DNA of 23,161 nucleotides, from positions 1 through 23,161 of the IMG/VR virus record IMGVR_UViG_3300034418_002632; one strand, given 5' to 3'. The notes below the pieces were generated by a model that was not told the origin of the DNA, searched no databases, and saw only the letters and a list, made by a program, of their open reading frames with translations. The stretch comes from a virus. Of this stretch, positions 2,248 through 20,120 are shown in pieces (within the stretch, counting starts at the first letter, position 1; every line of letters starts with the position of its first letter). The translations under genes were made by a program, and so were the position numbers.

Positions 2248-2260
2248 ATATTGTATTTAT
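2248..2260 (-). promoter_or_regulatory. T4-late-type promoter motif ATAAATACAATAT (exact copy)
   Basis: Exact minus-strand copy of the 13-mer found at four sites in this window. It ends 15 nt before the ATG at 2232 and directly precedes the Shine-Dalgarno sequence. The ATAAATA core matches the T4-family late promoter (TATAAATA, recognised by the gp55 sigma factor with the sliding clamp). The promoter function is inferred; the repetition is seen. Confidence 0.55.
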
Positions 2261-2281
2261 TCTATTGGTTAAAAATTAAAA

Positions 2282-2488
2282 CTATGAGACATCTATTGGT
2301 CCCTCATGGTCTTCTGTAATTATATCTTTATCAACTAATTCTTTTTTTAAGTCTCTGATTTGACTATCAAGTAACGCACTTTGAGGTAGTGTCAAAAGTC
2401 TGTTATATCCTTTAATAGCCTCCTTTCTTCCCACTCTTTCTATATGAGTCATTGTTGGTGGTTTTAGTGGGTGTATTATTCTACGCAT
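2282..2488 (-). CDS. Small hypothetical protein after the tail tip gene
   Basis: 68 aa. The N-terminal part is basic (MRRIIHPLKPP, RKEAIKGYNR) and the C-terminal part acidic and probably helical (SQIRDLKKELVDKDIITEDHEG). There are no membrane segments or cysteines. It lies between the J-like protein and the 172-aa structural protein, in the same direction and 20 nt after the J-like gene in transcription order counted from 2509 to 2488. I do not recognise a family. Position suggests a minor tail or assembly factor, but nothing in the sequence shows this. Confidence 0.6.
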   Translation of the reverse strand: MRRIIHPLKPPTMTHIERVGRKEAIKGYNRLLTLPQSALLDSQIRDLKKELVDKDIITEDHEGPIDVS

Positions 2489-2508
2489 ATTAATTTCCTA
2501 ATTATATT

Positions 2509-5500
2509 TTAAAACTTTTTATATCTTCTAACTAGAACATCACCTGTTACATTATTGGTATCATTTGCATCTAATGCTCGCCACAAATATCCAATAAATT
2601 CTATTGGAAAAAAGAATGGCAAACTAACACCAACATACTCATCCTCAAGTGCATATAATTGAGGTTGATTTGCTTTTAACTCAATAGTAGTGATATTTTG
2701 ATCATTTACAGTAAAAGTTGAACTGTACTTAAATTTAGCAAAAGGATTAAGTTGTATTGTAGCATCGGTAGATGATACAAATTGAAAAACAGCATCAATT
2801 ACAAAATATTCATAAGATGCTATTCCCCCACCAACATCAACAGACCCTAATGGGTACCAATCATTTTGCCCAGTTACAAAGTTACCATCAGTAGCCGCAG
2901 CCGGTGTAAATGAACCAGTACTACTTGCATCATAACCGTTTACTGTACTAGAAGTACCTTGATAATAGGGATACCATCTTGTAGATGAAATTGGTGTAGT
3001 TGTTGGTCTAACAATAGAAGGAGCATTTGTTGCATACAATACAGGAAGTGTCACATTGCCGCCGGAGTCTGACACAGACCAAGTTTCGTCTGCAACAAAA
3101 GTACCAACGTTTACGCCTGTGAGTTTATCATAGCTTATTGTACCATCTTGTATTGTATTACCATTTACACCGCCAGCAGGCTCTCCATTATCTGGATTTA
3201 AACACGTGATTGTTACACATCCATTTGCTATAAATGGAAATACTGGTTGATTAATACGAATCTGAGTATTAGATATATTTTCTACAACATACGTATCTGG
3301 AAGAATATACCCACTATCAGCACTAATAAGTGTTACATTTCCACCTAAACATGGTTTTGGATCCCAATCATAATACGTATTTGATGAAGGAACATAAAGT
3401 TCTAAAACATCGCTGAGAACATTCCCAGCTGTCCAAACATTACAATATGTGTTTGAATTATAATCTGTAATATTAGGTCCTAACCATTGTACAGGGCCTG
3501 CAGAAGGACTGTTAACACCTACTTGATCATTACGTGCTTTAACAGACCAGTAGTAAGTATTTTCTGGCAAATCTGTCATTGTAATTGTATAAGCAGTGTT
3601 TACTGTACCAGTACCTGAACCACTATTATTTGCAATAAATGTAGTTTCTAATGCTTTACCACTACCTGTTGCTAATATATCATCATTTGCAGTAAAAATA
3701 GTACCTACTGCATTAGAAGATGCGCCTGCACTTACCCAGTCAGTATTACCTGACGTATGAATAATGTAGGGTCTACCTACTGTTAAGAAACCTGTATAAT
3801 TAGGTTGATTAGACAAGTCAACTAAGTTTGCACCAAACGTTTCAAATGAACTGTTGCCCAAAGTATTAATTCTATATTCTTGACCTATAGAAATATTAGC
3901 CGCATCTAAGTCACCTGTTAAAGGCGAGCCATCTGCGTTATATGCACTTGTATAAAACGAATGCAATTCTGCATTACTGTCTGTGCCATACTGAAATTCT
4001 AAGTAATTAACAAGACCTGTATTTGGCACAATGCCAGTTACACTTAGATACGCAATTGAGCCATCTGCATTTAACCATAGATCGGGTGCTTCTGGCGTAC
4101 CAATTAAGTTAGGGTCTGCTAATCCAGTGTTTGGATCAGGCTGAAAGTCTAATAATGCTCTATCTGCGTAAATTGTATCGTTATATTCAAATGCAGTGAT
4201 AGAAACGCCTAGCGAACCATCTTGGTATTTTTCTTCTGCTACTGAAGCAACTCTAAACAGTTTACCATATGTAGTTGATGGATCTAATGGGTCTGGATTA
4301 AGTACGTCCCAACCATATACTTCTTGTTTGACACGTATAACATCACCTGCTTCTATTTGTATACCAGAATAGTCTAGTTTGCAAGTAATAGTTAAGTCTT
4401 CTCTACTCTGTAAAAGTCGCCTCACGCCTACGTACAGCGCCTGTACTGAATTGTTTATCACGGGGAAGTCTATGTCTAGTTTATTGACTGCTTCATTAGG
4501 CGACATAACGCCTACTTGATAATCTTCTAACTCAATAACTTGATAATCGATTTGATCTCTAATGTATTGGTTAGGATATGCAACTTCCATTTGGTTGTAA
4601 GTTTCATTTAAATTGATAGGAGCAACATTTATGCCCCCTATAAGATTGCTAGAATCAACTAAAAACAAATTACCAATTGTAGTATAATCTGTGTAACTTT
4701 GATTGATTACAACACTCCACTTTGCATTTAGTTCGTTATATTGTAACCAAGAGTCTGTTGAATCTACAAGAATCTGTAGATTTTCTAAACAACTAATATT
4801 TGTAGCAAGAGGACCATTGATGCGATATCTTGGTTGCGTACCTGTACCATAATCAATAATTTCGTCAGAGTAAGTATTCAATGCTGTTAGTGATGCTGTG
4901 TCAATACGTGATGCAGGAACAGCACAACCATAACGTGTGTTTTGCAAATAATCTGCAATTACATCACCTGGCTTATCTAATGAGTTTATAATTCTGGCTT
5001 GCAATGCACCAAGACTTGTTGTGCCTGAATCTGTGTTATATTCTACACGTATAATAGCAAATGCACAGTCTGTCATTAAATCTGTAGCAGTCCATCGTTC
5101 TCCTACAGGTATACCACCACCTGTAGATGCATCACTTAATATTTGAATAGCAGTTTGTCCACCTGTGTTAAAACCAGAACTCGATCCATCTGTAAACAAC
5201 CAAATCTTAATTTTACCACTAACTTTAGTGTCAATAGTAGGAGGTGTTGTGTTGTTAATTAAGCCAGTTACATTACCATTTGCACCAAATTCGACTTTTT
5301 TACCATCATAATAGATATTATCTGGGATACCCGGAGAAATAGTATCAAAAGTATAACCACCTGTATCTGTAACTTCTGCAAGTGCAACAACATACCACAT
5401 ATACTGTTGATCTTGTGATAGTTTTGCATCAATAACAGGTCCGCTTACATATCCACTACCATAAACTACAGGAATCTTGTTATCTGTTGCAGGTGGTAAT

Positions 5501-5697
5501 TGTACACGACCTCCACCTTGTCCTGCACCTAATCCTGACGCGGCAGACTTTTGCATACGTTTTGCAATTAGCGATGACACACCAACACTTAATAATGTTG
5601 ATCCAACAGCAGTAAAAACAGTAAGTGCCGCGCCACCTAAACCTATTGCAGTACCTATTGCAGTAACTAATGCTGATATCGCTGTAAAAACTGCCAT
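2509..5697 (-). CDS. J-like tail tip / host specificity protein with fibronectin-III-like region
   Basis: 1062 aa, the size expected of lambda J-family central tip proteins. Residues 5-45 are strongly hydrophobic and Gly/Ala-rich, then comes RMQKSAASGLGAGQGGG. The middle part, about 240-512, fits the phage-tail_3/J domain, ending in ITAFEYNDTIYAD, the usual close of that domain. A fibronectin-III-like strand pattern follows (YLEFQYGT near 565-572 and TYYWSVKARND near 714-724). Between these strands lie two tandem copies of the phage motif GxxYxIxxxGxxxFxxxGA, at about 605-623 and 641-682. The last 300 residues are beta-rich and probably bind the host or the fibre. The stop of the GNAT gene overlaps this start region (TAA at 5700-5698, ATG at 5697). 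The role is lambda J-like by order and architecture; receptor specificity is unknown. Confidence 0.85.
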   Translation of the reverse strand: MAVFTAISALVTAIGTAIGLGGAALTVFTAVGSTLLSVGVSSLIAKRMQKSAASGLGAGQGGGRVQLPPATDNKIPVVYGSGYVSGPVIDAKLSQDQQYMWYVVALAEVTDTGGYTFDTISPGIPDNIYYDGKKVEFGANGNVTGLINNTTPPTIDTKVSGKIKIWLFTDGSSSGFNTGGQTAIQILSDASTGGGIPVGERWTATDLMTDCAFAIIRVEYNTDSGTTSLGALQARIINSLDKPGDVIADYLQNTRYGCAVPASRIDTASLTALNTYSDEIIDYGTGTQPRYRINGPLATNISCLENLQILVDSTDSWLQYNELNAKWSVVINQSYTDYTTIGNLFLVDSSNLIGGINVAPINLNETYNQMEVAYPNQYIRDQIDYQVIELEDYQVGVMSPNEAVNKLDIDFPVINNSVQALYVGVRRLLQSREDLTITCKLDYSGIQIEAGDVIRVKQEVYGWDVLNPDPLDPSTTYGKLFRVASVAEEKYQDGSLGVSITAFEYNDTIYADRALLDFQPDPNTGLADPNLIGTPEAPDLWLNADGSIAYLSVTGIVPNTGLVNYLEFQYGTDSNAELHSFYTSAYNADGSPLTGDLDAANISIGQEYRINTLGNSSFETFGANLVDLSNQPNYTGFLTVGRPYIIHTSGNTDWVSAGASSNAVGTIFTANDDILATGSGKALETTFIANNSGSGTGTVNTAYTITMTDLPENTYYWSVKARNDQVGVNSPSAGPVQWLGPNITDYNSNTYCNVWTAGNVLSDVLELYVPSSNTYYDWDPKPCLGGNVTLISADSGYILPDTYVVENISNTQIRINQPVFPFIANGCVTITCLNPDNGEPAGGVNGNTIQDGTISYDKLTGVNVGTFVADETWSVSDSGGNVTLPVLYATNAPSIVRPTTTPISSTRWYPYYQGTSSTVNGYDASSTGSFTPAAATDGNFVTGQNDWYPLGSVDVGGGIASYEYFVIDAVFQFVSSTDATIQLNPFAKFKYSSTFTVNDQNITTIELKANQPQLYALEDEYVGVSLPFFFPIEFIGYLWRALDANDTNNVTGDVLVRRYKKF

Positions 5698-6150
5698 TTA
5701 GATGCCTCCCACCCAAACTTCTTCAGATTTTTGATATCCAAATCTTTCAAATTTTAAATCAGGAGAGTTAGACATCTTTGTAATAGTAAACATTTTGATT
5801 TTATCTTCTTCTACTAATTCTTCTGCTTTTTTGTTATATGCTTGTATTAAACGATAACCTGCTGAACTATTTCTATATTCTGGTTCTACCCAAAAAACTA
5901 ATTCTTGTAAAAATTTAAGTTCTGGGTCCCAAATGCTGTTGTTCATTATACCTGCAATCATACCAATAGGTTTGTCTTTTTCAGCAATGTATAATACTCC
6001 ACCACCTAATAAAATGTGATGAAAAATTGTGTTTACATGATCTGCATTATCGCAATTACGCATTAAATCAATAGGCGTTTCATTGCGAAAATTTCTTAGC
6101 ATATCTAAGATGTAATCAATGTCAAATTTGTCTGCTTCACGTATTTTCAT
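5698..6150 (-). CDS. GNAT-family acetyltransferase-like protein in tail-tip cluster
   Basis: 150 aa from the ATG at 6150-6148. The first residues MKIREADKFDIDYILDML are a typical GNAT opening. A beta strand pair VLYIAEKDKPIGMIAGIM lies at 52-69. ELVFWVEPEYRNSSAGYRLI at 83-102 fits GNAT motif A, the acetyl-CoA pyrophosphate loop, though the R/Q-x-x-G-x-G/A pattern is relaxed. A late FGYQKSEEVW (137-146) closes the fold. The frame is open further upstream, to 6261, but those residues (AEAAEAAAS) are the glycine tract of the neighbour read in another frame. The start at 6150 lies just after the neighbour's stop (TAATATG). GNAT-like proteins are known near virion genes of podoviruses (T7 gp13 region). 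Substrate is unknown, and it may be structural rather than catalytic. Confidence 0.8.
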   Translation of the reverse strand: MKIREADKFDIDYILDMLRNFRNETPIDLMRNCDNADHVNTIFHHILLGGGVLYIAEKDKPIGMIAGIMNNSIWDPELKFLQELVFWVEPEYRNSSAGYRLIQAYNKKAEELVEEDKIKMFTITKMSNSPDLKFERFGYQKSEEVWVGGI

Positions 6151-6151
6151 A

Positions 6152-6826
6152 TTAAGGTATTCTAATGTTTCTAGGATCAAAGCCAGGGAAGCCGCCGCCT
6201 CCGCCGCCTCCACCGCCTCCACCGTAGTATGTTTGATTCTTTGGTTCTTGTCCAAAGTCAAAGTCTACGCCAGAGATAGCATATACACGATCCATTGATG
6301 TATCAGTTGGATTGAATACTTTCCAACTTTCTTCGTTTGTTTTTCTACCAGCAATTCTGTTAGACAACACAGTTTTGTAACTGCTTGCCGCAACTGCTAC
6401 TGTAAAGTTATCTTGCTGACTATCTCTATCTTCTGTAATTCCATAACTTGTTATAATACCTGTAAATCTTAAATATGTATTATCTAATTCGTTATTATCG
6501 TCATAAAAACCACGCCATACTTCAACTTCACTACCTCTAATCTTGCTGTCAAGTACAACAAAGATATTATTTGTGTCAATACCAGACAATGAAATCATAG
6601 TATCACCAGCAGTAACACGTAAATCTCTGTTTTGTGCACCTACTTGCAATAATCCACCTAATGCAAGATAAACATCACCATCGATAGTTTCGTTTTTATA
6701 TGCACTACTAAATGTATATGTAGATGTATCAGTAGGATCAGTGTAATCGTTGTAAATTGTTAGTTTTACAAACTCTGCTGATTTGATTGCGCCTGTATTT
6801 TGTACTTCTGGTATATTTTGTGTCAT
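6152..6826 (-). CDS. L-like / DUF2163-like tail-tip hub protein with polyglycine tail
   Basis: 224 aa. Beta-rich N-terminal two thirds with AGDTMISLSGID, IRGSEVEVWRGFYDD and LRFTGIITSYGITED, a pattern shared with lambda gpL-like and DUF2163-type minor tail proteins. SNRIAGRKTNEESWKVFN followed by VYAISGVDFDFGQ matches the conserved GRxTN...F-W/F-G ending of that group. A run of eleven glycines near residues 201-211 precedes FPGFDPRNIRIP. It follows the M-like gene with a 3-nt gap, in the lambda M-L order. It probably forms part of the tip hub that J sits on. The family assignment rests on motif resemblance and gene order only. Confidence 0.7.
   Translation of the reverse strand: MTQNIPEVQNTGAIKSAEFVKLTIYNDYTDPTDTSTYTFSSAYKNETIDGDVYLALGGLLQVGAQNRDLRVTAGDTMISLSGIDTNNIFVVLDSKIRGSEVEVWRGFYDDNNELDNTYLRFTGIITSYGITEDRDSQQDNFTVAVAASSYKTVLSNRIAGRKTNEESWKVFNPTDTSMDRVYAISGVDFDFGQEPKNQTYYGGGGGGGGGGGFPGFDPRNIRIP
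6191..6223 (-). repeat. GGA/GGC triplet tract encoding eleven glycines
   Basis: 33 bp made only of GGT, GGA and GGC codons on the minus strand, a very GC-rich spot in AT-rich DNA. Such tracts are prone to length change. It also creates an alanine/glutamate-rich reading in another frame, which falsely extends the downstream GNAT gene upstream. Confidence 0.9.
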
Positions 6827-6829
6827 AAT

Positions 6830-7516
6830 TTACGCCGTTGCTACCCATTCGTATAATTGAAAGTCATCAGAAAATTCAATTAGTGCATTTCCTAATATTA
6901 CACCAGATTGTTTTTGATATCCGCCTGGTACTAATTTATAAGTAGGCATATTAGGGCAGAATAATTTAAATTGACATGAATTACCTACTGTAATACCATT
7001 ACCTGCAACACTAGTAGTTAAGATATTAGGTCTGTGTGTAGTAATTTGTACTGTAGAACCAGTTCCACGTAAAACTTGTGATTGCACAGTGAATGGATAA
7101 GTGTTATTACCAATTTGAATCAAGTCATTTGGTTCAAATAACACTCTTGTTGACGCAATAGCAGGTAAATTACTCAATGTTAATGTGCTACCCACAAAAC
7201 TTTGTACTGTTATACCGTTGATTTGTGCTGAACTCATCGACCCTTGATATCTAAATATCCAAGATAAGCAAGCATTGTTACCAAATGTAACTGTTTCTGG
7301 TACATTTCTGTCTAATGTGTCTAATGCTTCCATCAAAGCACGTGCTTCGTTGTATCTAAAACGACCGGGCATAGTTAAATTGATACGCCATGGTTGGTAT
7401 GTTGGTGTTTCTGAAGTTCTTGCAACTTCATTACGTGTAAATTGTATGCCAACAACCTTTCGTCTATCAATTTCTATAGCATTACAATTGTCAATAATTG
7501 TTTGTAATCCAGCCAT
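6830..7516 (-). CDS. M-like minor tail / distal tail protein
   Basis: 228 aa. The N-terminal half, with RRKVVGIQFTRNEV, YQPWRINLTMPGRFRYNEA and ALMEALDTLDRN, resembles distal tail proteins of the lambda M type, which bind the end of the tube. The second half is a small beta domain (VQSFVGSTLTLSNLP, NDLIQIGNNTYPF, VLRGTGSTVQI) similar in pattern to inserted carbohydrate-binding-like or OB-like modules seen in tip proteins. The end (VILGNALIEFSDDFQLYEW) returns to the distal tail fold. It sits between the small membrane protein and the L-like gene. Assignment is by order and pattern; moderate confidence. Confidence 0.68.
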   Translation of the reverse strand: MAGLQTIIDNCNAIEIDRRKVVGIQFTRNEVARTSETPTYQPWRINLTMPGRFRYNEARALMEALDTLDRNVPETVTFGNNACLSWIFRYQGSMSSAQINGITVQSFVGSTLTLSNLPAIASTRVLFEPNDLIQIGNNTYPFTVQSQVLRGTGSTVQITTHRPNILTTSVAGNGITVGNSCQFKLFCPNMPTYKLVPGGYQKQSGVILGNALIEFSDDFQLYEWVATA

Positions 7517-7528
7517 CGTTATTTCCTA

Positions 7529-7729
7529 TTATTTTTTAGAAAACGATTTTAGTTCTGTTACGTTGCGAATCTCTGATCCATAACCAACTGCATACATTAA
7601 CACAGTTAATGGCAATAACCAAAGAGATACTGCTCCTAACATGTGTCCCCATGTTAGAGATATCGCACCTAAACTAAAAACGTTTAATGTGCCTGTTTGT
7701 GGTACTTGTTTTTCACTTACTATTCTCAT
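7529..7729 (-). CDS. Small single-span membrane protein after the tape measure gene
   Basis: 66 aa. Residues about 17-50 are hydrophobic, with one clear membrane segment around 30-49 (LGAVSLWLLPLTVLMYAVGY). The first ten residues are polar and the tail is basic (KSFSKK). The start has a good AAGGAG site in a 17-nt element that is also found before the gene at 11228. The slot between tape measure and M-like protein has no counterpart in lambda. It could be a tail-associated membrane protein needed for DNA entry, or a holin-like lysis protein. The sequence does not decide between these. Confidence 0.65.
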   Translation of the reverse strand: MRIVSEKQVPQTGTLNVFSLGAISLTWGHMLGAVSLWLLPLTVLMYAVGYGSEIRNVTELKSFSKK

Positions 7730-7736
7730 TTGTTTC

Positions 7737-7753
7737 TCCTTATAAATTATTAA
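7737..7753 (-). repeat. 17-nt leader repeat TTAATAATTTATAAGGA (copy 1)
   Basis: Identical to 11236-11252. It contains the stop region of the tape measure gene and the Shine-Dalgarno sequence of the 66-aa membrane protein. Both copies sit immediately before a small gene, which suggests a shared translation or promoter element. Confidence 0.5.
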
Positions 7754-10167
7754 CCGTATGGCATTTCTTTTTGTGCCATTTGCACGGTACCTAGTAATGT
7801 TTTTCTGTTTTCTGCAAACAGTTGTGCAACTGACTTAGCATCGATTGCACTAATTTGGTTAGTAATGTAAGTATTGTTTACTGTGCCTCCCATTCCTAAC
7901 TGATCATTGGGTATAATAGTTCCTGCTGTATTTGGTACAAACAATTCAGGTCCTCTTTCACCAACTATCGATGGTCTACCTACTGGAGGTCTACCACCAT
8001 CTGCAAATCCAAAGAGTGATTTGATTGCACCAAAGAATCCTCCACCAGTGCCTCCTGCACCAGTGCCAAAGATTGTAGCAATCATTTTTTGTATCTGACT
8101 TCTAATTATCAACTCAATCATACTGTTAATTAAATCTTTGAATGACAATTTACCTGTCTTAACAAAATTTACAAGTGCATCTTCCATGCCCTTTGTCATA
8201 GTATCAAATGCTTGTTTTGCTTGTGCGGCACCATCATAGGCTTTTTCTACATAAGCATCAATTGCGTTTGTCCAACCAGTTTCAAATTCACGTGATGCAT
8301 CATAATTTTCTTTAAATTGATCTTTTAATTCTTGTGAACCTTTTTCAGCAGCCGCATAATACGCTTGTATCTCAGCAGTACTTAATTTTTCACCGCGTCT
8401 TGCTTCTTCTGCTTCAATGGCTGCTTGTGCGGCTTCTCTGGCTGCAACTTCAATGTCATAATAACCTTTTTCTAATTCAGTCATCGTCATTTTTGCATAT
8501 TCATCTTGCAAATTACGCAGTTCTTTTTGCATATCAATTTGTTGTTGCAGACTAAATTGTAAAAGTTCGTTGGCACGTGTTTTTTCTATAACAGCATCAG
8601 TACTATTTTCTATTGCTTTCTTTTCTTTTTCGTAATCAGCGATAAGTTTTGCTAATGCCGCTTGTAAAGTCCCTATACTGTTTCTAACATTTTCATCATT
8701 GCTAATTTGTGCTTTAGCAATCTCATCTTGCAATCTACGTTTTTCTTCTAGGTATCTTTCTTCAAATGCTTGTATTTCAGATTGCTTTTTAGCCGCATCT
8801 TCACCTGCACCTATCAATTCACGTTCTAATTTTAATGCTTTTACTTGTTCTTCGTTTCTGCGTTTGTATTCTCTAACGCTATTTGCAATTTCTAAATTAA
8901 CTTGTGCAATTGCATTTGCAATTTCTAATTGCGATTCGGCAGTTGCAACACCAGAACCAGCAACATCACTTAATGCCTTATCAACTTCAGAAATCATTGC
9001 TTCAAATTCTGCTAATTCTGCGGTTAGATCACTTGTATCATCAGCCAGTTCTGAAAAATCGTCAAAAAGTTTGTCTATTCCTATAAATGATGCGATTGCG
9101 GCGGCCAAACCACCGATAAAACCGGTAAGTGTTGCTACGGCTTCTCCCAAATAACCAGCAGATTTGCGTAATCCTTCCCAAATAGGTTTAGTACCTTTTG
9201 CTAGACCTAATGCACGTTTTATATAATGCCCTATAACCGCAAAAGTTTTACCTAAACTACTCAATGCTACGAATGCCTTGTCACTAGATGCTCTGAGGCC
9301 CATAAATGCGGCTGATAATCCCCTAAACAACTTGCCTATTGCACTAAATGCTAATAAAGACATTCCTATTTTAAATACTGTTTTAAGAGGACCTATAATT
9401 TCTTGGATATTTTTTGTTGCTTTGTAAATTGAGAATGCAAAATATGTTATTACTCTACTTACAGATGTAGTAACCTTACCTTGTTCATCTACTGCCCCAA
9501 CTGCTAATAATGCCGCAGTACGCAACTGGTTCATAGCCTGACTAACTGTAGGTATTCTTTTAGCAAGGTTAATTAAACCTTGTTTATCCATTTCTTTTAA
9601 CGCATCAACAATAACATTAGCAGATACTTTACCTTCAGATGCTAATTTTTTCAATGCACCTACACTTTGTACCCCTACAATTTCTGCCATCTTTTGAGCA
9701 ACTGGACCCAAATTTTCAATAACTGCGTTTAAGTCTTCACCTTGGAATCTACCTAGTGAGAATGCTTGACCAATGTTATACAATGCACTTTCTGCTTCTC
9801 GGGAACTAGCACCAAACACTGATAATGCTGATGATAATTGCAATGTAAAATTAGCAGTATCTTGTAACGATAATCCTAAACCGTCAGCAGTTCTACCTAC
9901 TTTAGTAAAAATATCTGCTACCGTTTCAATATTTTGTCCTGTTGCTAATGAAATTTTACCAATAGTATCAAATGCTATTCGGGCTTGATTAGCATCTGTT
10001 ATAAATGAGTTTAATTTATTTTGGATAGTTGTGACAGAATCAGCAAATTCAGTTAATTCTTTAATACTTACCGCGGCGGCAAGAGCAGTTAATGCTTTAG
10101 TTAAACCACCTATGCTTTGTTGAGCACCTTTAGTATCGACTTCAACTGTATATTTTAAATCTGCCAT
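7750..10167 (-). CDS. Tail tape measure protein
   Basis: 805 aa, the longest helical protein in the window. Residues about 60-200 match the tape-measure N-terminal domain (TIGR02675 type), e.g. SALSVFGASSREAESALYNI, FQGEDLNAVIENLGPVAQKM and LKKLASEGKVSANVIVDAL. Hydrophobic stretches follow at about 255-300 and 345-372 (TLTGFIGGLAAAIASFIGI). A long charged coiled coil spans about 380-650. The C-terminus carries GGRPPVGRPSIVGERGPELF, a frequent tape measure ending. It acts as a ruler inside the tube and is ejected with DNA. Using the general rule of about 1.5 Å per residue, a tail near 120 nm is predicted (inference). It follows the chaperone G/T genes and the gp10-like gene, as expected for long-tailed phages. 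Confidence 0.93.
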   Translation of the reverse strand: MADLKYTVEVDTKGAQQSIGGLTKALTALAAAVSIKELTEFADSVTTIQNKLNSFITDANQARIAFDTIGKISLATGQNIETVADIFTKVGRTADGLGLSLQDTANFTLQLSSALSVFGASSREAESALYNIGQAFSLGRFQGEDLNAVIENLGPVAQKMAEIVGVQSVGALKKLASEGKVSANVIVDALKEMDKQGLINLAKRIPTVSQAMNQLRTAALLAVGAVDEQGKVTTSVSRVITYFAFSIYKATKNIQEIIGPLKTVFKIGMSLLAFSAIGKLFRGLSAAFMGLRASSDKAFVALSSLGKTFAVIGHYIKRALGLAKGTKPIWEGLRKSAGYLGEAVATLTGFIGGLAAAIASFIGIDKLFDDFSELADDTSDLTAELAEFEAMISEVDKALSDVAGSGVATAESQLEIANAIAQVNLEIANSVREYKRRNEEQVKALKLERELIGAGEDAAKKQSEIQAFEERYLEEKRRLQDEIAKAQISNDENVRNSIGTLQAALAKLIADYEKEKKAIENSTDAVIEKTRANELLQFSLQQQIDMQKELRNLQDEYAKMTMTELEKGYYDIEVAAREAAQAAIEAEEARRGEKLSTAEIQAYYAAAEKGSQELKDQFKENYDASREFETGWTNAIDAYVEKAYDGAAQAKQAFDTMTKGMEDALVNFVKTGKLSFKDLINSMIELIIRSQIQKMIATIFGTGAGGTGGGFFGAIKSLFGFADGGRPPVGRPSIVGERGPELFVPNTAGTIIPNDQLGMGGTVNNTYITNQISAIDAKSVAQLFAENRKTLLGTVQMAQKEMPYG

Positions 10168-10176
10168 TGTATGTTC

Positions 10177-10461: not shown

Positions 10462-10711
10462 ATTTTTTACCTTTTATCGCATACAATTCTTCAAGTGTTA
10501 AATCTGGAACTGGCGCTCTTCCATTTTTACTATTTGCTTTTTTGTTATGATAGTTTTCAAATGTTAATGCCGCATCCATAATATATAAGTCAAATGTATC
10601 TGCTTTCATCAAAACTTCGCTAGGTAAAAGACCATATCTCTTACCTAATGTGTCAATTTGCATTATTGATGTCATCTTAGGAGAATCGATCACTAATGCA
10701 TCAGTTGTTAC
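10439..10711 (-). CDS. T extension of tail assembly chaperone, made by minus-1 frameshift from G
   Basis: This frame is minus 1 relative to gene G and is open from the slippery site to the TGA at 10441-10439. After the slip it reads GTA ACA ACT GAT GCA TTA and then the GTG at 10693. If started at that GTG the protein would be 84 aa, but no Shine-Dalgarno site is visible there. Fusion to the 99 residues of G gives about 189 aa, comparable in organisation to lambda gpG-T. The domain is helical (PKMTSIMQIDTLGKRYGLLP, TFDLYIMDAALTFENYHNKK) with a charged tail. By analogy, the G part coats the tape measure and the T part recruits tube subunits. The chaperone role is inferred from position, frame relation and slippery sequence. 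Confidence 0.8.
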   Translation of the reverse strand, partial: VTTDALVIDSPKMTSIMQIDTLGKRYGLLPSEVLMKADTFDLYIMDAALTFENYHNKKANSKNGRAPVPDLTLEELYAIKGKKYEVNKKD

Positions 10712-10767
10712 TTTCCCAAAAGTTCAGTAACCTTACCAATTGCCTTCATCAAAACTTTACTAGGTAA
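10601..10767 (-). repeat. 27-nt direct repeat (24/27 identical) in chaperone G and its T extension
   Basis: Copies lie at 10601-10627 (T frame) and 10741-10767 (G frame), 140 nt apart. They encode LPSEVLMKA and LPSKVLMKA, each read in its own gene's frame. The 140-nt offset is not a multiple of three, consistent with the minus-1 relation of the two frames. Confidence 0.85.
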
Positions 10768-11007
10768 CATATTTTTATTACTAATAATTTGTTTACCATT
10801 TTCGTCTAAGATAAGATTTTTAACAATATCAATAATATTGCCTGTGTCTTGCTCAGAACCTACGTTTGCAAGTTTAGTAAACACTTCCATAGGTTGACGA
10901 TCCCAACTATAAAAAACTAGAGGTTCACCAAATTCTTTAGTGGTATCTTCGTCATCTATTGTGAGTTCGACTAACTGGGGTTGTGCTGATAATTCTGATA
11001 GTTTCAT
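10708..11007 (-). CDS. Tail assembly chaperone G-like protein
   Basis: 99 aa, acidic and soluble, with a beta-like start (LVELTIDDEDTTKEFGEPLV) and a helical second half (ILDENGKQIISNKNMLPSKV, LMKAIGKVTELLGK). It sits between the tail tube and the tape measure, the fixed place of gpG-type chaperones. Its last codons, TTG GGA AAG TAA, contain the heptamer GGGAAAG that lambda uses for G/G-T frameshifting. The ATG overlaps the previous stop (ATGA) and has a CAGGAG site 8-9 nt upstream. A late-promoter-like motif lies 24 nt before the start. G alone should be the major product and the fusion the minor one. Confidence 0.82.
   Translation of the reverse strand: MKLSELSAQPQLVELTIDDEDTTKEFGEPLVFYSWDRQPMEVFTKLANVGSEQDTGNIIDIVKNLILDENGKQIISNKNMLPSKVLMKAIGKVTELLGK
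10711..10717 (-). other. Minus-1 ribosomal slippery site GGGAAAG
   Basis: In the zero frame it reads G GGA AAG followed at once by the TAA stop of G, a correct X XXY YYZ arrangement. It is the same heptamer as in phage lambda G/T. An AAGG stretch about 13 nt upstream could act as a stimulating internal Shine-Dalgarno sequence. I see no strong downstream hairpin. Confidence 0.85.
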
Positions 11008-11228
11008 TTGTTATTCTCCTGTGAATTGTTGATATTGTATTTAGCAGAATCGTCTACTGATTCTAGTAGTTGATTTAGTAATGCTAAACGAAATTGTTGT
11101 TTGGCTTTGAGTTGCCTGATAGTTGCACCCAAGTTATCTAACATGGGCATCATTTTTGCCTCATCAGCGATGAGTGATCTGAGTTTTTCTTCGTCTGTTT
11201 TGAGCCAGACTTGTGCTGAGTCGTTCAT
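11004..11228 (-). CDS. Small helical protein between tail tube and chaperone G
   Basis: 74 aa, predicted almost fully helical (EEKLRSLIADEAKMMPMLDN, LGATIRQLKAKQQFRLALLN), with a polar tail. No cysteines or membrane segment. It is the first gene after the tube-gene hairpin and is coupled to chaperone G by an ATGA overlap. Its last codons contain a 12/13 copy of the late promoter motif that serves G. I recognise no family. An accessory assembly factor is possible. Confidence 0.65.
   Translation of the reverse strand: MNDSAQVWLKTDEEKLRSLIADEAKMMPMLDNLGATIRQLKAKQQFRLALLNQLLESVDDSAKYNINNSQENNK
11032..11044 (-). promoter_or_regulatory. Late-promoter-like motif, 12/13 match, before chaperone G
   Basis: CTAAATACAATAT on the minus strand, one mismatch to the 13-mer, inside the last codons of the 74-aa gene and 24 nt before the ATG at 11007. 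Being within coding sequence lowers confidence. Confidence 0.4.
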
Positions 11229-11235
11229 TTATTTT

Positions 11236-11252
11236 TCCTTATAAATTATTAA
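11236..11252 (-). repeat. 17-nt leader repeat TTAATAATTTATAAGGA (copy 2)
   Basis: Identical to 7737-7753. It starts in the T-rich tail of the tube-gene hairpin and ends in the Shine-Dalgarno sequence of the 74-aa gene. Confidence 0.5.
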
Positions 11253-11256
11253 AAGT

Positions 11257-11280
11257 GAGTAGGGAGTTGCCTCCCTACTC
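11257..11280 (-). terminator. Hairpin after the tail tube gene, probable intrinsic terminator
   Basis: A perfect 10-bp stem (GAGTAGGGAG / CTCCCTACTC) with a 4-nt loop. On the minus strand it is followed by ACTTTTAAT, a short T tract. It lies 15 nt after the tube gene stop, where phages often limit read-through after a highly expressed tube gene. The weak T tract means it may attenuate, or protect the 3' end, rather than fully terminate. Confidence 0.7.
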
Positions 11281-11294
11281 GATTGGTATAACAA

Positions 11295-11807
11295 TTATGC
11301 TACGGTTGTACCTTGTGATAAGATGCCGTCTACAGCAATAGTCATTGGTGATACCCAAATAGGAGCCTCAGGGCTCACAGTTGGGGCAATGCTAGTAATG
11401 TATCCAAGACCTTGGTAATAGTACTTACCGGTAACATCAATTTCTCCGTCCATAACTACTACGAATTGTACTTCGACTTTGTTTGCAGAAAGACCATTGA
11501 CACCCCATTCAGGAGCAGTAGACTGTCCTGTAGTTAGAGTACCAAAAAACTCAGTGTCTTCGATAACCATATTAGTTTCAATACTGTTATCTGCAGGAGT
11601 AGTAATCTTGTTCATGTCTGTTGAACAGAAGTCTGTCCAAGAGAATACTCCAGTTGAGTTAGTAATGGTAATGTCTTGTAAGCATTCTACATCTAAGAAG
11701 TCAAATCCAGAAACTGTTGCTACAGAACCTGTATAAGCATTTGCAGTGTCAGTACTCAAGTAGATATGAGGTTGTTTACCTGTTGTGTTTACTGTAATTC
11801 TTGCCAT
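11295..11807 (-). CDS. Major tail tube protein
   Basis: 170 aa, beta-rich. It carries VATVSGFDFLDVECLQDI, MVIEDTEFFGTLTTGQS, KVEVQFVVVMDGEIDVTG and WVSPMTIAVDGILSQG, a pattern of strands typical of siphovirus tube proteins. It lies directly downstream of the tail terminator-like gene and upstream of the chaperone pair and tape measure. It has a strong GGAGA site and is followed by a terminator hairpin, both fitting a major virion protein. No Ig-like C-terminal decoration domain is present. Function by order and strand pattern; no catalytic features are expected. Confidence 0.78.
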   Translation of the reverse strand: MARITVNTTGKQPHIYLSTDTANAYTGSVATVSGFDFLDVECLQDITITNSTGVFSWTDFCSTDMNKITTPADNSIETNMVIEDTEFFGTLTTGQSTAPEWGVNGLSANKVEVQFVVVMDGEIDVTGKYYYQGLGYITSIAPTVSPEAPIWVSPMTIAVDGILSQGTTVA

Positions 11808-11819
11808 GTTGTTGTCTCC

Positions 11820-12245
11820 TTAAGATTGATAGGCGTTATTAAATTCTAAACGTGTTAAGTCAAATGTATAGGTATGTATTTCACTACGATTACCTATTGT
11901 AACTTCTCTGTCAAATTCTACTGATGTATAACCATCAAAAAAGTTGACGTTTGCGGCTAAATCTTCAATAGCATCTTGTATTGCTACAGACTGTGGATCA
12001 TTTTGAAATGATATGTACATGATATTGAATTGATCAATAGCATCATACATCGAACCACAGTTTTGAATTGCTAACTGATTAACTGTTCTACTATTAGTAG
12101 TTACGTCATCAACATACAATCCATATGCTACTGTGTCTTCGTCACTAGGATAACTTGCAGATACTTCGATAATTGGAGTCTGTTGTCTCGCAACTGCTCG
12201 TAAGTAAACTACTACATCATCTTTGTCGACCAAAGGTCTAGCCAT
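11820..12245 (-). CDS. Tail terminator-like / tail completion protein
   Basis: 141 aa. DKDDVVVYLRAVARQQTPII at the start, alternating beta/alpha in the middle, and an ending of EIHTYTFDLTRLEFN that fits the small alpha/beta fold of lambda gpU / SPP1 gp17-type terminators, which measure the local value of a regular property per subunit. Its ATG overlaps the stop of the connector gene by 1 nt (TAATG). It is followed within 12 nt by the tube gene, the usual position. Sequence similarity to named families cannot be asserted from sight. Confidence 0.6.
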   Translation of the reverse strand: MARPLVDKDDVVVYLRAVARQQTPIIEVSASYPSDEDTVAYGLYVDDVTTNSRTVNQLAIQNCGSMYDAIDQFNIMYISFQNDPQSVAIQDAIEDLAANVNFFDGYTSVEFDREVTIGNRSEIHTYTFDLTRLEFNNAYQS

Positions 12246-12772
12246 TAAAAGTATCTCCTATCACCAGTGAAATAGTCTGGATCAGATGTCCAGTTTTCTT
12301 CCAACTTAGTAGTAGGACCATCTGGCGCATCATTATTCAAGTCATAAAAATTCATCAATTCTAATGCTTTAGTCCATTCGGCTTCAAATCTGTCAACTGC
12401 ATGATTAAAGTTTGCAGTATCAACAGAGTTGACATTAGACGTATCAGACACGATACTCTCGTAGAAGATTTTCACTGCCATGAAAGTATCAAGTCTGATT
12501 AACGTTTGATCATTTTTAATTAATTGACCTGGATTAAATGCAGATACCATTTGTCCATTAGGTAAGTTAGCGTAATATGATGCTCCAAAAACAGTATCAC
12601 AATACTTAGGCCACCACCCAAATTCAAGTTTATACAAAATCTCTTGCGACCCTACTTTAAAGTAGTTGTCCCAGTCGATTTGCATTTGTGATGCACGCCT
12701 TTCTGCCGCAGGATCATAAAATATGATGTCTGAGACTGTTGCATTTGATACCCTTTGATATGGAACTGACAT
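12245..12772 (-). CDS. Head-tail connector / neck protein
   Basis: 175 aa, mixed helical, with aromatic-rich stretches (IDWDNYFKVGSQEILYKLEF, GWWPKYCDTVFGASYYA) and a helical part DRFEAEWTKALELMNFYDLN. It lies between the major capsid protein and the tail terminator-like gene, where adaptor and stopper proteins are encoded. The acidic/proline tail ends in DPDYFTGDRRYF. I do not recognise a specific family, so neck role rests on synteny. It is coupled to the next gene by a TAATG overlap. Confidence 0.6.
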   Translation of the reverse strand: MSVPYQRVSNATVSDIIFYDPAAERRASQMQIDWDNYFKVGSQEILYKLEFGWWPKYCDTVFGASYYANLPNGQMVSAFNPGQLIKNDQTLIRLDTFMAVKIFYESIVSDTSNVNSVDTANFNHAVDRFEAEWTKALELMNFYDLNNDAPDGPTTKLEENWTSDPDYFTGDRRYF

Positions 12773-12795
12773 ATTATTTTCCTATACTAATTGAA

Positions 12796-13845
12796 TTAAG
12801 CCTGTAGAATGTTAATAGCTCCGCCTCTTCTTAAATCAGCGACACCTGCACCCATGTATGCAAGACCAGTTACCCACATTTGTAGTCCACCGGGCTTCTC
12901 ACCTGTCTTAATTTGAAGTCCTTCTTTAAGAACAGTGAAGATAGCAGTTTCATGGAAGTAAGCACCAACTAATACTGATTCGCCAGATACGCCAGCAACA
13001 GTACGTGTTGCACCATCCAAGAATGTGGTGAAAATAACTGCACAACCATAGATGTTGGATAACTGACCAGTTGCTAATAGTTCTTCACCAAGTGAAGTAA
13101 TAGCAGATCCGCCTGAATCAGCAGAACCAACTGCTCCGCCTGTTAATTCATCAAGCATACGATTCATTGAAGAACCACTTCGTGTTGAAGCAGTAACTTC
13201 AGCAGAGTCACCATTAGAATCTAGTACAACAATAGGTGTACCTGGTAAACGTGCTGTTTTGTAGTTTTGCTTAACGTTACGAATCAAGCCAAGTACTGAG
13301 TTAGCAGTAAAGCCTGATGTAGCACCAGCTGGGGAATCTCCGTCAGCAACAAGTTCCATAGCACCTAACTCAGTTGGACGAGCAAAGCCGTCTTGTGGAG
13401 CAGGTGAGTAGTTTACGTTACCTGGGCCTACTTTAAATGAAGTGAAAGCGGCGCATACACGCTGATCAACTTTCTCTGCATAAGATTCGCCAAGTTCAGC
13501 ACCAATAGTTGCGGCTAATTGGAAAGAAGTTGTCCATCCATAGAACACATCAAATGCTGTGGCTGCAACTGCTGGAGTTGCTGTGATAGAGCCTTGTCCA
13601 AGGCTTGGGTTTTGTTCAACTGCACCACCTGTAGCAAAACCACCGTCTCCATTAACTGGGGTGTAGTCTTGGTATGTGATTGGTGCAAAGTTAGGTACTA
13701 AGTATTCGTTACCTTGAGTAGGTGTAACTACCTGTGTAAAGTCTACTAGACCTTGGCTTTCGTGCATAGCACGTAAAGCAAAGTTTGCAATCGCAGTAGT
13801 GAATCCATCTGATTCGTTATTACTGCCTCCTAATATATATGCCAT
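12796..13845 (-). CDS. Major capsid protein
   Basis: 349 aa, abundant-protein composition (A, G, T, V) with an AGGAGATT site. It begins MAYILGGSNNESDGFTTAIA and includes AVAATAFDVFYGWTTSFQLA and LGESYAEKVDQRVCAAFTSF, consistent with the long helix and belt of an HK97-fold shell protein. LRRGGAINILQA ends it. It follows a scaffold-like gene and precedes the connector genes. There is no obvious separate N-terminal delta domain. No maturation protease is encoded next to it. Identity from position, size and composition; fold inferred. Confidence 0.8.
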   Translation of the reverse strand: MAYILGGSNNESDGFTTAIANFALRAMHESQGLVDFTQVVTPTQGNEYLVPNFAPITYQDYTPVNGDGGFATGGAVEQNPSLGQGSITATPAVAATAFDVFYGWTTSFQLAATIGAELGESYAEKVDQRVCAAFTSFKVGPGNVNYSPAPQDGFARPTELGAMELVADGDSPAGATSGFTANSVLGLIRNVKQNYKTARLPGTPIVVLDSNGDSAEVTASTRSGSSMNRMLDELTGGAVGSADSGGSAITSLGEELLATGQLSNIYGCAVIFTTFLDGATRTVAGVSGESVLVGAYFHETAIFTVLKEGLQIKTGEKPGGLQMWVTGLAYMGAGVADLRRGGAINILQA

Positions 13846-13869
13846 TGTAGTAATCTCCTATATGTTGGC

Positions 13870-14652
13870 TTATAAAACTTTCCTAGATGTACCTGAAACT
13901 GTCATGCCCACACTCTGACTTTTTAAGCCAGTACCTTTACCTAGACCATTCCTTTGAGCCCAAGCATTGAATGCCGCAGGGTCTTTAGAATAATCAGGTA
14001 TTTGGTCAAGGGGAGCACCAGCAAACATGTTGCCTTGTCCAGGTCTTAATCCAGATCCTGATTGAGTTGCTTTTTGCTTAAGTAACTTTGGGTTACCTAT
14101 AGCAATTTCTTCAACTAAACCTCTCAAAGAGAGTGGATTACCATCATCACCATAACGCTCTTGACCTTTGCCATTGACTATGCTGTAAGTTCCATCTTCA
14201 TTCCAAGCAATATTTGCTTTAATCTTTTGGACAGCATATTCTGATAGTTCAGTGTCGAATCTGTCACCCATTGTTTGCAGTATATCTGTTTCAAGTTCTT
14301 TTACTTTCAGTGCTTGCTCTTTTTGAGTAAGTTCTGAACGTAATTTTTGAAACTGTTCATGCAAATCGTTGGTTGAAACACGATTTGATTGTCGTGGCTG
14401 TTGTACTTCCACTGGCTGTACGTTGCCATCGGTTTTTTGAGCCGACATCTTAGCGATAAACGCAACTGCATCTTCTACAGAACTTAAGTCTGTACCAGAT
14501 GCTTTACTCAAAGCATTCAAAATACCTTGAGTTTGTGCTTTGCGAATAGCGCCAGGGTTAACTCTAGGCTCGTTTGAAGAATTTTGAACTTCATCGTTCA
14601 CTTGATCTTCCACAAGGGCTTGTTCGTTGCCAACGTCTATTTGATCACTCAT
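13870..14652 (-). CDS. Capsid scaffold-like protein
   Basis: 260 aa. An acidic, disordered N-terminus (1-35), helix at 35-70, then a charged coiled coil at about 95-128 (LHEQFQKLRSELTQKEQALK). A conserved-looking segment RGLVEEIAIGNPKLLKQKAT follows, then a glycine/serine-rich, basic tail. It lies between portal and major capsid protein, the usual site of the scaffold. It has its own late-promoter-like motif 42 nt upstream. Scaffold function is inferred from architecture and order. No serine protease motif (as in scaffold-protease fusions) is visible. Confidence 0.75.
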   Translation of the reverse strand: MSDQIDVGNEQALVEDQVNDEVQNSSNEPRVNPGAIRKAQTQGILNALSKASGTDLSSVEDAVAFIAKMSAQKTDGNVQPVEVQQPRQSNRVSTNDLHEQFQKLRSELTQKEQALKVKELETDILQTMGDRFDTELSEYAVQKIKANIAWNEDGTYSIVNGKGQERYGDDGNPLSLRGLVEEIAIGNPKLLKQKATQSGSGLRPGQGNMFAGAPLDQIPDYSKDPAAFNAWAQRNGLGKGTGLKSQSVGMTVSGTSRKVL

Positions 14653-14694
14653 TTAATTCTCCTATTATAACGTAATAACCGTTTATTTGTTGTG

Positions 14695-14707
14695 ATATTG
14701 TATTTAT
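14695..14707 (-). promoter_or_regulatory. T4-late-type promoter motif ATAAATACAATAT (exact copy)
   Basis: Exact copy of the 13-mer. It includes the TAA stop codon of the portal gene and ends 42 nt before the scaffold ATG at 14652. Orientation is that of the genes. Confidence 0.55.
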
Positions 14708-16311
14708 CGACCAGTATTCATACCAGTCAATTGTACAGCAATTGCTTGCTGAGTTTCATATGAAGGTCCTGTATTTTGAATGGGTACACCTGGTCCGTTC
14801 TGACCTGTGTAACCAATCATATCATCGCCTGCATATTCACTACCTTCTTCGCCTTCGTATTCTTCTTCCTCTTCACGTTTAGAAGGAATCTGAGATCCTA
14901 AATCTCTGCTCAATACTAACTCGTTTTCTTCAGTCATTAATTGTTTAACTGAAGGATCTTCAATTGTATCAATATATGCTTGTTCATATTGACCAACTGA
15001 TTCTTGAGGTGCTAGAATACCAATAATGTCTTTTGTAATCAATGCATCAACAATAGTATTTTCTGGTACTAATTGTTTTGCTTCTTTATAGACAGCGATT
15101 CGATAGTTTGTGTCATGTGCCTCATAGTCAGTTGCATAAACAACTTCACCCGCCCAACGCATGTCCATAAAACGTGCCGCGTAAGTAAAGATTAATTCTT
15201 CTGCAACTTCCATTAGTCTTGCTTTTGCTTTCGCCAATCTATGAAGTGTTTTACGTTCTTCAATGATTGCTACCCCTGAAGCAATTTGATGTTTATTTTG
15301 TCTTAGTCCACCTAGACCAGTTAAGCCTTCGATTTGATCTAGCAATTGTTTTTGCTTTTCCATAATCTTAGTTACATCGCCTGTATCTACAGGGATAGTC
15401 TCAACTTGCCCTTGTGTTGCTCTAACAATAGCACCAGCATGAACAGGAATAGAAATACCCCTGTCTGCTCTGATAATTGTTTTTGCAAATTGCATTGAAG
15501 AATATGCTTCACATTCTAGTTTGTAATATTCTCTTTGTGCATCTGATGCAGAATCAATGTCTGAAATACCAACATCAAATCTGCGAGGATCTCTGCGACC
15601 ATATGCAATAAATCCAGGTATACCCATACCAGCTGGAAAGTAACCTTGACCTAATACTGTTGCATCGTGGTCCATTTTTTGATCTTTTTCTATTTCATAA
15701 CTAATCCAATATGAAGGTTCGCTTTCATTACCTAAATGATAACACTTGTAATAATAACATTCTTCATTTTCGTTTTCTAATACTTTAACGTATTTTAAAA
15801 TAGGTGCACCACCATAGAAATCAAATTCCCAGTCATGCACTTGTAATGGATTAATTGCAACTACGTAAGGTCTACCTAAGTTACCTTCGCTTTCTTCAGG
15901 CATATCAACAAAGATCCAACAATGTCCATAGATACTAGTAAGATCACCTACGTTCTCCATAAATGCATCCATTGTTCTGTTTTGTAAATCAGCATCCAAT
16001 AACATTAATTGAGACCACTCGATGTTATTTGGATCGATCATTGTGGCTGTGGGTGTGCAAAATCTTAAGTCACGTTTTACGCCCGGCTCAAAAAGAATAT
16101 CGTTGATCGTGTCAACAACATAACGACAGATAGGTTGTGCTACCGTATTCTCAATTAAATCTCGGTAAAGATTTGAATCTTCTGAGGGACGCTTCTTGCG
16201 TACATAAGTTTTGAATGGATAGCCTCCTAGATAAGCATACTGATATCCCATCATTTGAGGATATAGTGCTTCATACATAGGATTGCGTTTTAGCAGTTCT
16301 TTTGCTTTCAT
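14704..16311 (-). CDS. Portal protein
   Basis: 535 aa, standard portal size. IENTVAQPICRYVVDTINDI (53-72) begins the wing/stem-type region. INPLQVHDWEFD lies at 153-164. The C-terminal part holds the stem/clip helices: KIMEKQKQLLDQIEGLTGLG (315-334), then SGVAIIEERKTLHRLAKAKA and LMEVAEELIFTYAARFMDM, the conserved SG-x-A-x8-LH pattern of portals. A very acidic stretch (about 480-497) precedes a disordered tail. It assembles as a dodecamer at one vertex for DNA entry. It comes after TerL and an inserted endonuclease, and is preceded by tandem late-promoter motifs. Confidence 0.9.
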   Translation of the reverse strand: MKAKELLKRNPMYEALYPQMMGYQYAYLGGYPFKTYVRKKRPSEDSNLYRDLIENTVAQPICRYVVDTINDILFEPGVKRDLRFCTPTATMIDPNNIEWSQLMLLDADLQNRTMDAFMENVGDLTSIYGHCWIFVDMPEESEGNLGRPYVVAINPLQVHDWEFDFYGGAPILKYVKVLENENEECYYYKCYHLGNESEPSYWISYEIEKDQKMDHDATVLGQGYFPAGMGIPGFIAYGRRDPRRFDVGISDIDSASDAQREYYKLECEAYSSMQFAKTIIRADRGISIPVHAGAIVRATQGQVETIPVDTGDVTKIMEKQKQLLDQIEGLTGLGGLRQNKHQIASGVAIIEERKTLHRLAKAKARLMEVAEELIFTYAARFMDMRWAGEVVYATDYEAHDTNYRIAVYKEAKQLVPENTIVDALITKDIIGILAPQESVGQYEQAYIDTIEDPSVKQLMTEENELVLSRDLGSQIPSKREEEEEYEGEEGSEYAGDDMIGYTGQNGPGVPIQNTGPSYETQQAIAVQLTGMNTGR

Positions 16312-16326
16312 TGAGTAGTCCTAAAG

Positions 16327-16358
16327 ATATCTTATTTATATTGCAATATTGTATTTAT
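16327..16358 (-). promoter_or_regulatory. Tandem late-promoter-like motifs before portal
   Basis: An exact 13-mer copy at 16346-16358 is followed on the minus strand by an 11/13 copy (ATAAATAAGATAT) at 16327-16339. Both carry the full octamer TATAAATA, 19 nt apart. The nearer copy ends 15 nt before the ATG at 16311. The spacing of the nearer copy equals that of the motif before the 2232 gene. Confidence 0.55.
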
Positions 16359-16361
16359 ATT

Positions 16362-16802
16362 TTATGTTATAGTTTTATGTTTGCAGTTTTCATCATGCCA
16401 ACGTGTAAGCAGTGCTGGTGTTGTATAAACGTTGCAATATTTACATTTGCGTGAATTTTTACTGCCAAAAAGATTATGTCTACCTTTTCCAATCATATCT
16501 TGTGTATTATCTTGTCGTGTACCTAAATGCAAATGATCTGGGTTGCAACATTTAGGATTATCACATGTATGCATTACTACTTTATTGTCAGGTATGTGAC
16601 CCTTGTGTATTTCGTAACTTACTCTGTGCGTAGTTCTCATACCACCTCGTTCGTTGTCCCCATAATCTGTGTCTCTAATCAAACCATACCCAATGTTGTT
16701 TGTAGACAATTGCCATTCCCAACATTCAGTTTGTTCAATGTACTTACAACTACGATATAATCTTTCATCTATTGGTGTTGTTTTTCTTTGTTTTTTAGCC
16801 AT
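16362..16802 (-). CDS. HNH homing endonuclease between terminase and portal genes
   Basis: 146 aa. CWEW at 27-30, IGYG near 37-40, HRVSYEIHKGHIP (59-71), then VMHTCDNPKCCNPDHLHLGT (76-95) with the HNH histidines and asparagine (H78, N87, H90) and DNTQDMIGKGRHN. This is the phage HNH family with a zinc-binding CxNPxCCNPxHL core. A second Cys2-His-Cys cluster (C120, C123, H136, C140) forms a C-terminal finger, likely for DNA recognition. Free-standing HNH genes often sit beside packaging genes, whose conserved sequence they cut in rival phages. It has its own exact late-promoter motif and a GGAGG site. Catalytic residues look intact. Confidence 0.9.
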   Translation of the reverse strand: MAKKQRKTTPIDERLYRSCKYIEQTECWEWQLSTNNIGYGLIRDTDYGDNERGGMRTTHRVSYEIHKGHIPDNKVVMHTCDNPKCCNPDHLHLGTRQDNTQDMIGKGRHNLFGSKNSRKCKYCNVYTTPALLTRWHDENCKHKTIT

Positions 16803-16825
16803 ATTAAATATCCTCCGTATAACAT

Positions 16826-16838
16826 ATATTGTATTTAT
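16826..16838 (-). promoter_or_regulatory. T4-late-type promoter motif ATAAATACAATAT (exact copy)
   Basis: Exact copy of the 13-mer, with a leading T giving the full TATAAATA. It ends 23 nt before the ATG of the HNH gene at 16802. The remainder of 16803-16871 is AT-rich with no other feature seen. Confidence 0.58.
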
Positions 16839-19888: not shown

Positions 19889-20120
19889 CGGTTTCCTCTT
19901 TAACATTGTTTAAGTTGTGTTCTAGCATTAGTGAATTCAAAAACTCTAACACGCTTTTGATCGACACGATTGCGGCATTGTGCCCCATCTTTTCTGCTTC
20001 AGTCATAGTATCAGTATCTAAGTTTACAGCATTGTCTAAAATTTCTCGACAGTCTTGTATTAAGGGTTGTATAGTGACCCACGCTACACCATCAGGTCCA
20101 GTTTGTATTTGATATCTCAT
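19857..20120 (-). CDS. Hypothetical small acidic protein
   Basis: 87 aa. Begins MRYQIQTGPDGVAWVTIQPL with a beta-hairpin feel, then a helical part with EAEKMGHNAAIVSIKSVLEF. The C-terminus (EETDENTTRSSIH) overlaps the next gene's start. Its ATG overlaps the stop of the sialyltransferase-like gene by 4 nt. Function unknown. Confidence 0.7.
   Translation of the reverse strand: MRYQIQTGPDGVAWVTIQPLIQDCREILDNAVNLDTDTMTEAEKMGHNAAIVSIKSVLEFLNSLMLEHNLNNVKEETDENTTRSSIH

Follow-up and report, generated by a model that had tools for sequence, protein, structure and literature searches.

Predicted T4-type late promoters precede the virion genes of an uncultivated phage family in which the T4 late transcription factors are not detected

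Late transcription in phage T4 is a textbook system, bound to the T4 clamp and gp55. In T4 late promoters, the only element is a TATA box of 8 bp, recognised by gp55 and placed about one helical turn ahead of the start (PMC2988020). The window analysed here is an entire 23,161-bp IMG/VR record (IMGVR_UViG_3300034418_002632), itself a genome fragment, in which an initial annotation had described a regulon of T4-type late promoters in a phage with non-T4 structural genes. Which factor would read such promoters in this phage? With gene calls made by simple ORF rules, the relevant features of the window are as follows.

1714..2232, minus strand: 172-aa gene (ORF; MSLLLSGAKTM) heading the tail-fibre unit
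2248..2260, minus strand: predicted late promoter (A)ATAAATACAATAT, exact copy, 15 nt ahead of the 172-aa tail gene
10708..11007, minus strand: 99-aa gene, putative tail assembly chaperone by position only
11032..11044, minus strand: weak copy CTAAATACAATAT (12/13) within the 3' end of the preceding gene, 24 nt ahead of the 99-aa gene
12796-13845, minus strand: major capsid gene (phrog_267, E 3e-4), coming after the scaffold gene
13870..14652, minus strand: probable scaffold gene (260 aa), assigned by position alone, without a family match
14695..14707, minus strand: predicted late promoter (G)ATAAATACAATAT, exact copy that overlaps the stop codon of the portal gene and lies 42 nt ahead of the scaffold gene
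14704..16311, minus strand: portal gene (535 aa; phrog_145, E 1e-24)
16327..16339, minus strand: tandem second TATAAATA (AGATAT), 11/13, 15 nt ahead of the portal gene
16346..16358, minus strand: predicted late promoter TATAAATACAATAT, exact copy, 34 nt ahead of the portal gene
16362..16802, minus strand: HNH endonuclease gene (146 aa; phrog_1872, E 5e-32)
16826..16838, minus strand: predicted late promoter TATAAATACAATAT, exact copy, 23 nt ahead of the HNH gene
16872..18329, minus strand: large terminase gene (485 aa; phrog_2, E 2e-39), the query for finding relatives
19532..19906, minus strand: core protein B (124 aa), family-conserved, predicted fold and profile not sigma-like
19857..20120, minus strand: 87-aa core protein A, without similarity to gp55
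20117..20752, minus strand: 211-aa accessory gene with relatives in the T4-like phage HTVC008M and in 47 T4-like loci, mostly GAP32-like
20849-21004, minus strand: 51-aa protein MPVQRVTVKGETFYRWG..., short and family-conserved (also in G019, G027, G038 and G039), nearly without isolate relatives
21082..21366, minus strand: 94-aa core protein C, carrying a single Cys-Cys-His-Cys zinc motif and without similarity to gp55
21366-21740, minus strand: 124-aa gene, preceded by CATAAATA
21757..21764, minus strand: promoter-like CATAAATA, overlooked in the initial annotation, 16 nt ahead of the 124-aa gene

The four exact copies of ATAAATACAATAT, the 12/13 copy and the 11/13 copy were all found at the coordinates given for them earlier, and the plus strand carried none. 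Every copy was oriented with the coding strand and stood before a gene, the gaps to the next ATG being 15, 42, 34, 23, 24 and 15 nt for the copies at 2248, 14695, 16346, 16826, 11032 and 16327. The core sequence that had been assigned to them was complete only in part: the full TATAAATA is present at 16346, 16327 and 16826, and the remaining copies read AATAAATA (2248), GATAAATA (14695) and CTAAATA (11032). Against Markov shuffles of the window, 0.0075 exact copies were expected (max 1 in 400) and 4 were found. All six sense occurrences of ATAAATA lay 8-75 nt before a start codon, a zone that makes up 10% of the sequence, and the antisense strand had none. When two mismatches were allowed, 9 matches to ATAAATACAATAT stood against a shuffle mean of 3.9, which is scarcely beyond chance; therefore, the two-mismatch copies at 224, 12022 and 21873 were regarded as noise.

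Profile comparison assigned the structural proteins of the window to siphovirus-type families or gave no match, and recognisable T4 structural genes were absent. A gp23-type capsid and a contractile tail with sheath, by which T4-like phages (Tevenvirinae/Kyanoviridae) are delimited, were not found among them, and cross-hits between the family and T4-like phages included no T4-like structural genes. The earlier description of a T4-type regulon in a phage with non-T4 structural genes was thus borne out by the phrog_2 terminase, the phrog_145 portal and a tape-measure protein, which is also encoded in the window, together with the conservation of the motif.

Among 50,697 phage records, the closest terminase matches were below 30% identity and a close isolate was absent. 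IMG/VR held many relatives, with at least 52 family records among the matches listed; their frequencies in IMG/VR are not abundance estimates. Sequence comparison places the window in a family of siphovirus-like phages, uncultivated and with genomes of 30-36 kb. The family is large and environmental and carries predicted capsid, portal, terminase and tail genes of its own. In five relatives (G012, G019, G027, G040 and G042), end overlaps of 126-145 bp closed circles of 30.4-32.9 kb, and G017, whose ends overlap imperfectly, was nearly circular. Such overlaps, of about 130 bp, support completeness at the level of assembly but do not prove it. In most of the longer relatives the tail region ends with a ferritin/Dps-like gene (PF00210, E 2e-15; L218:15558-15992 and relatives). 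The isolate HTVC111P was considered as a carrier of the promoter pattern and rejected, as it is a relative in the portal only and lacks the pattern. A search for the host through 84,980 prokaryote genomes was likewise given up, with only four distant matches (25-30%) among the matches listed.

Conservation of the motif was then read across the family. Over the 384 kb of 44 terminase relatives, ATAAATAC was counted 95 times on the coding strand vs 2 times on the opposite strand, and in 11 longer genomes it was the most enriched upstream 8-mer not resembling a Shine-Dalgarno sequence (37 vs 1.4 expected). The motif stood ahead of the same genes in the relatives, namely the gene after the terminase, the scaffold gene and the portal gene, where the tandem pair is retained in many of them. 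Equal abundance inside genes on both strands, which had been named as the observation that would speak against a regulon, was not seen; strand and position bias extended family-wide. The counterpart of the 172-aa gene (MSLLLNGAKT...) was preceded by the motif in G012, G017, G019, G023, G038, G039, G041, G042 and G043, and ATAAATA was present at the position matching the weak copy at 11032 in G012, G039, G040, G041 and G042. In some relatives a different gene takes the place of the HNH gene, and its ATG directly adjoins the motif. In G043-G046, the late motif is separated from the MAKF..NTLNQVGGFD tail-fibre gene by a second conserved leader, rich in hairpins (GCGAGG repeats).

A logo was built from 306 non-redundant family sites, a set that includes related sequences and was deduplicated by identity only. 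Its core is ATAAATA, after which C A W T A T are favoured (C.57, A.69, W, T.65, A.63, T.51). An upstream element is absent, and no upstream position exceeded 0.35 bit of information where a -35 element would be sought. The motif is thus very probably a T4-type late promoter with NATAAATA as its sole element. The core and the missing -35 element are as in T4, Melnitz, HTVC008M and P-SSM4, from which the downstream sequence differs. That downstream extension, ACAATAT in the window, had been taken as a conserved sign of a different recognition factor. This did not hold up: the extension changes from one family subclade to another, and an identical extended promoter, ATAAATACAATATG, is present in GAP32-like T4-like contigs, before an 82-aa gene adjoining the gp20 portal gene. 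Since the extension varies and T4-like jumbo phages share it, a new reader is not implied.

These GAP32-like jumbo phages (the L064 lineage in IMG/VR) resemble the family in having ATAAATACAATATG, in favouring C after ATAAATA and in placing an ATG at the expected +1. Unlike the family, they belong to the T4 superfamily as judged by capsid (gp23 67-70% to GAP32 and Vibrio phage 2.275.O), and GAP32-type isolates have genomes of about 350 kb. Where the ATG lies at offset 11-13 from ATAAATA, at the expected start, leaderless or near-leaderless late mRNAs are predicted. Counted on the assumption that the first ORF start is used, such ATG-abutting promoters made up 33/306 sites in the family (e.g. 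L014, L016-L018, L021, L023, L025-L028) and 9/28 in HTVC008M (L241-L248); at offset 12 an ATG was found at 38/125 GAP32-like sites (loci L493-L571).

Because the window is a fragment, the absence of the T4 late factors rests on the relatives. In the search that had been proposed for gp55, gp33 and gp45, the complete relatives detectably encoded none of the three. A gp55 profile that recovered 6/6 T4-like phages at E 1e-50 or better matched none of 52 relatives, nor phage DSL-LC06 described below, at E up to 10, and a gp55 HMM at maximum sensitivity, run over every frame of 12 genomes, reached a best E of 0.11. gp33 was found in 0/22 and gp45 in 0/37 and 0/10 family records, with 5/5 T4-like phages recovered in each control, and Sigma70_r2 (sigma70 region 2) was absent in 13 records. 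As core non-structural proteins the family has A, of about 80-120 aa, B, of about 120 aa, and C, with its one zinc motif. None of them showed similarity to gp55 in profile comparison. Protein B was rejected as a sigma, with a confident model (pLDDT 90) that had no PDB match below E 1. Judging by these comparisons, none of the shared genes looks like a substitute for gp55.

A further case was provided by DSL-LC06 (OR003941), which was published as complete and proposed for Nanhuiviridae (PMC10611076). It resembles the family in its 29.8-kb circular genome, a related terminase and portal, the same type of promoter and the lack of detectable gp55, gp33 and gp45, but its proteins are only about 25% identical to those of the family. 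The motif stands before genes in 5/7 cases, a result equalled by 10/4259 circular shifts; promoters are not mentioned in the paper on this phage (PMC10611076). DSL-LC06 had neither core protein A nor B nor the polymerase-like protein described below, and for protein C it had a weak match (E 2e-4). Since DSL-LC06 bears the motif, the three proteins that it lacks are ruled out as the common reader.

The early region carries promoters of another kind. Upstream of the replication-slot gene, several members have a near-consensus sigma70 promoter (TTGACA-17-TATAAT in G017), with a T4-type motif no more than a few bases after it. A leftward operon of small early genes has further strong sigma70 promoters, and strong early-region sigma70 promoters were found in most of the longer relatives. 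Sigma70-like matches per genome were at about the level of shuffles; therefore, only intergenic, recurrent sites carry weight. The slot gene itself is variable and encodes a 471-aa protein, proteins of 245-269 aa or a 517-614-aa protein with polymerase-like motifs, and no early-operon gene was common to all complete genomes. Small predicted lipoproteins (LLTGC-type signal), several with an upstream sigma70 promoter, are encoded in the early operons of G012, G027, G040, G041 and G042 and possibly act in superinfection exclusion. The 5' leader of the slot gene (L214-L223, L353-L362) contains a predicted, covarying H-type pseudoknot: the loop of a GC-rich hairpin pairs with a stretch 4-6 nt downstream in G012, G017, G019, G023, G027, G038, G039, G040 and G042, and P2 comprises 6-9 bp in many sequences, such as TTAGCG/CGCTAA, TTTTGACGA/TCGTCAAAA and CTGATAG/CTATCAG. 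Rfam gave no match in the five genomes scanned (G012, G017, G019, G023 and G027).

Promoter anatomy, its conservation, the lack of recognisable factors and the sigma70-like early promoters are read directly from the sequences. We propose that host sigma70 RNA polymerase would read the replication-slot gene and the short leftward early operon, while the virion genes would await a gp55-class factor that redirects the host polymerase to TATAAATA. Late transcription would start about 6 nt downstream of NATAAATA, with the promoter presumably read in the gp55 manner. Because gp55, gp33 and gp45 went undetected in the complete relatives, the factor would most likely be supplied in trans, and a co-infecting T4-like phage would be its most likely source. 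We hold this explanation as a whole, a T4-type late promoter regulon served by a co-infecting T4-like phage, tentatively and at slightly under an even chance. As weak support we counted a pair of accessory genes that have their closest isolate counterparts in T4-like phages, one of them with the relatives in 47 T4-like loci listed above, and the start-codon-abutting promoters shared with T4-like phages; the few, distant prokaryote matches were also counted for a helper. Counted against it were the small number and weak similarity of the shared accessory genes, early promoters and a replication-slot gene of the family's own, as would be expected of an autonomous phage, and a downstream extension that matches no single T4-like group exactly. 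So was an IMG/VR scan with the exact 14-mer, which failed as a helper detector, with T4-like genes no commoner near it than near the reversed control. Next to T4-like genes, however, copies of the 14-mer preceded ORFs more frequently (24/31 vs 14/32). Pelagimyophage and OM43 T4-like phages were rejected as the promoter source for their poor downstream fit (HTVC008M -2.2 bits, Melnitz -2.3 bits).

The main rival to a helper is a small, divergent or unrelated specificity factor encoded by the phage itself, which would then be autonomous. Early sigma70 promoters and small early genes are present, most proteins have no known function, and the zinc-motif protein C is widespread and reaches DSL-LC06 with its weak match. 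Yet the early operons lack a gene common to all complete genomes, proteins A, B and C lack gp55 profile similarity and B a sigma-like fold match, the gp55 HMM stayed at E 0.11, and DSL-LC06 lacks A and B. We regard a self-encoded factor as possible but rather doubtful. An alternative sigma or other activator encoded by the host and reading NATAAATA would explain why a phage factor went undetected in every complete relative. The motif, however, has no register that fits the key A and T of the sigma70 -10 element, and T4-like phages using the same promoter bring gp55. To our knowledge no host sigma has NATAAATA specificity, and a host factor appears improbable.

A reader of still lower probability is the 517-614-aa protein of many members, taken as a single-subunit polymerase. 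Its motifs YDLNAAVYAI, K..I..IGFGA and RVHD are family-A polymerase-like (L306:2230-4050 and relatives), and its top Foldseek hits were family-A (Pol I-type) DNA polymerases and mitochondrial RNA polymerases, but no fold hit reached E 0.001 and model confidence was low (pLDDT 53). It was rejected as a universal reader, since several motif users lack the gene: the complete genomes G019, G027 and G042, and also G017 and DSL-LC06. That the motif is no promoter at all, and arises from AT-rich chance or from a translation-related element, we find hardly credible. The genome has 36% GC and two-mismatch matches are near chance, but exact copies exceed expectation about 500-fold, strand and position bias recur across the family, copies are placed in tandem and abutting genes, and the logo is the same as that of T4 late promoters.

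The likeness to T4, where gp55, gp33 and gp45 act (PMC2988020, PMC7892883), thus lies in the 8-bp TATAAATA-type box as sole element, without -35, ahead of virion genes; the family differs in its genomes of 30-36 kb, in virion genes that are not T4-like and in that gp55, gp33 and gp45 are undetected beside the promoters. A supply of the factor by a T4-like phage would bring other systems to mind. Known phage satellites take structural proteins from their helper. Like P4, PICI and PLE, the family may depend on a helper phage for late expression, but in contrast to these satellites it encodes capsid, portal, terminase and tail itself. Virophages use giant-virus late promoters. On the best reading the family shares with these Lavidaviridae a small virus size, a capsid of its own and the late promoter of a larger virus; the comparison is one of analogy, not homology. 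A widespread bacterial counterpart of the virophages, with its own capsid and tail genes that are expressed only with the late sigma (and clamp) of a T4-like phage, is conceivable, although we give it less than even weight.

Literature searches, with most subscription papers and preprints outside their scope, found no such system. What appears to be new is the predicted use of T4-type late promoters in a big environmental family without detectable T4 late machinery. Alternatively to a helper, an unrelated factor would have converged on TATAAATA. If the supply by a co-infecting T4-like phage is true, late transcription would be parasitised between phages, and the family would lead a virophage-like lifestyle in bacteria.
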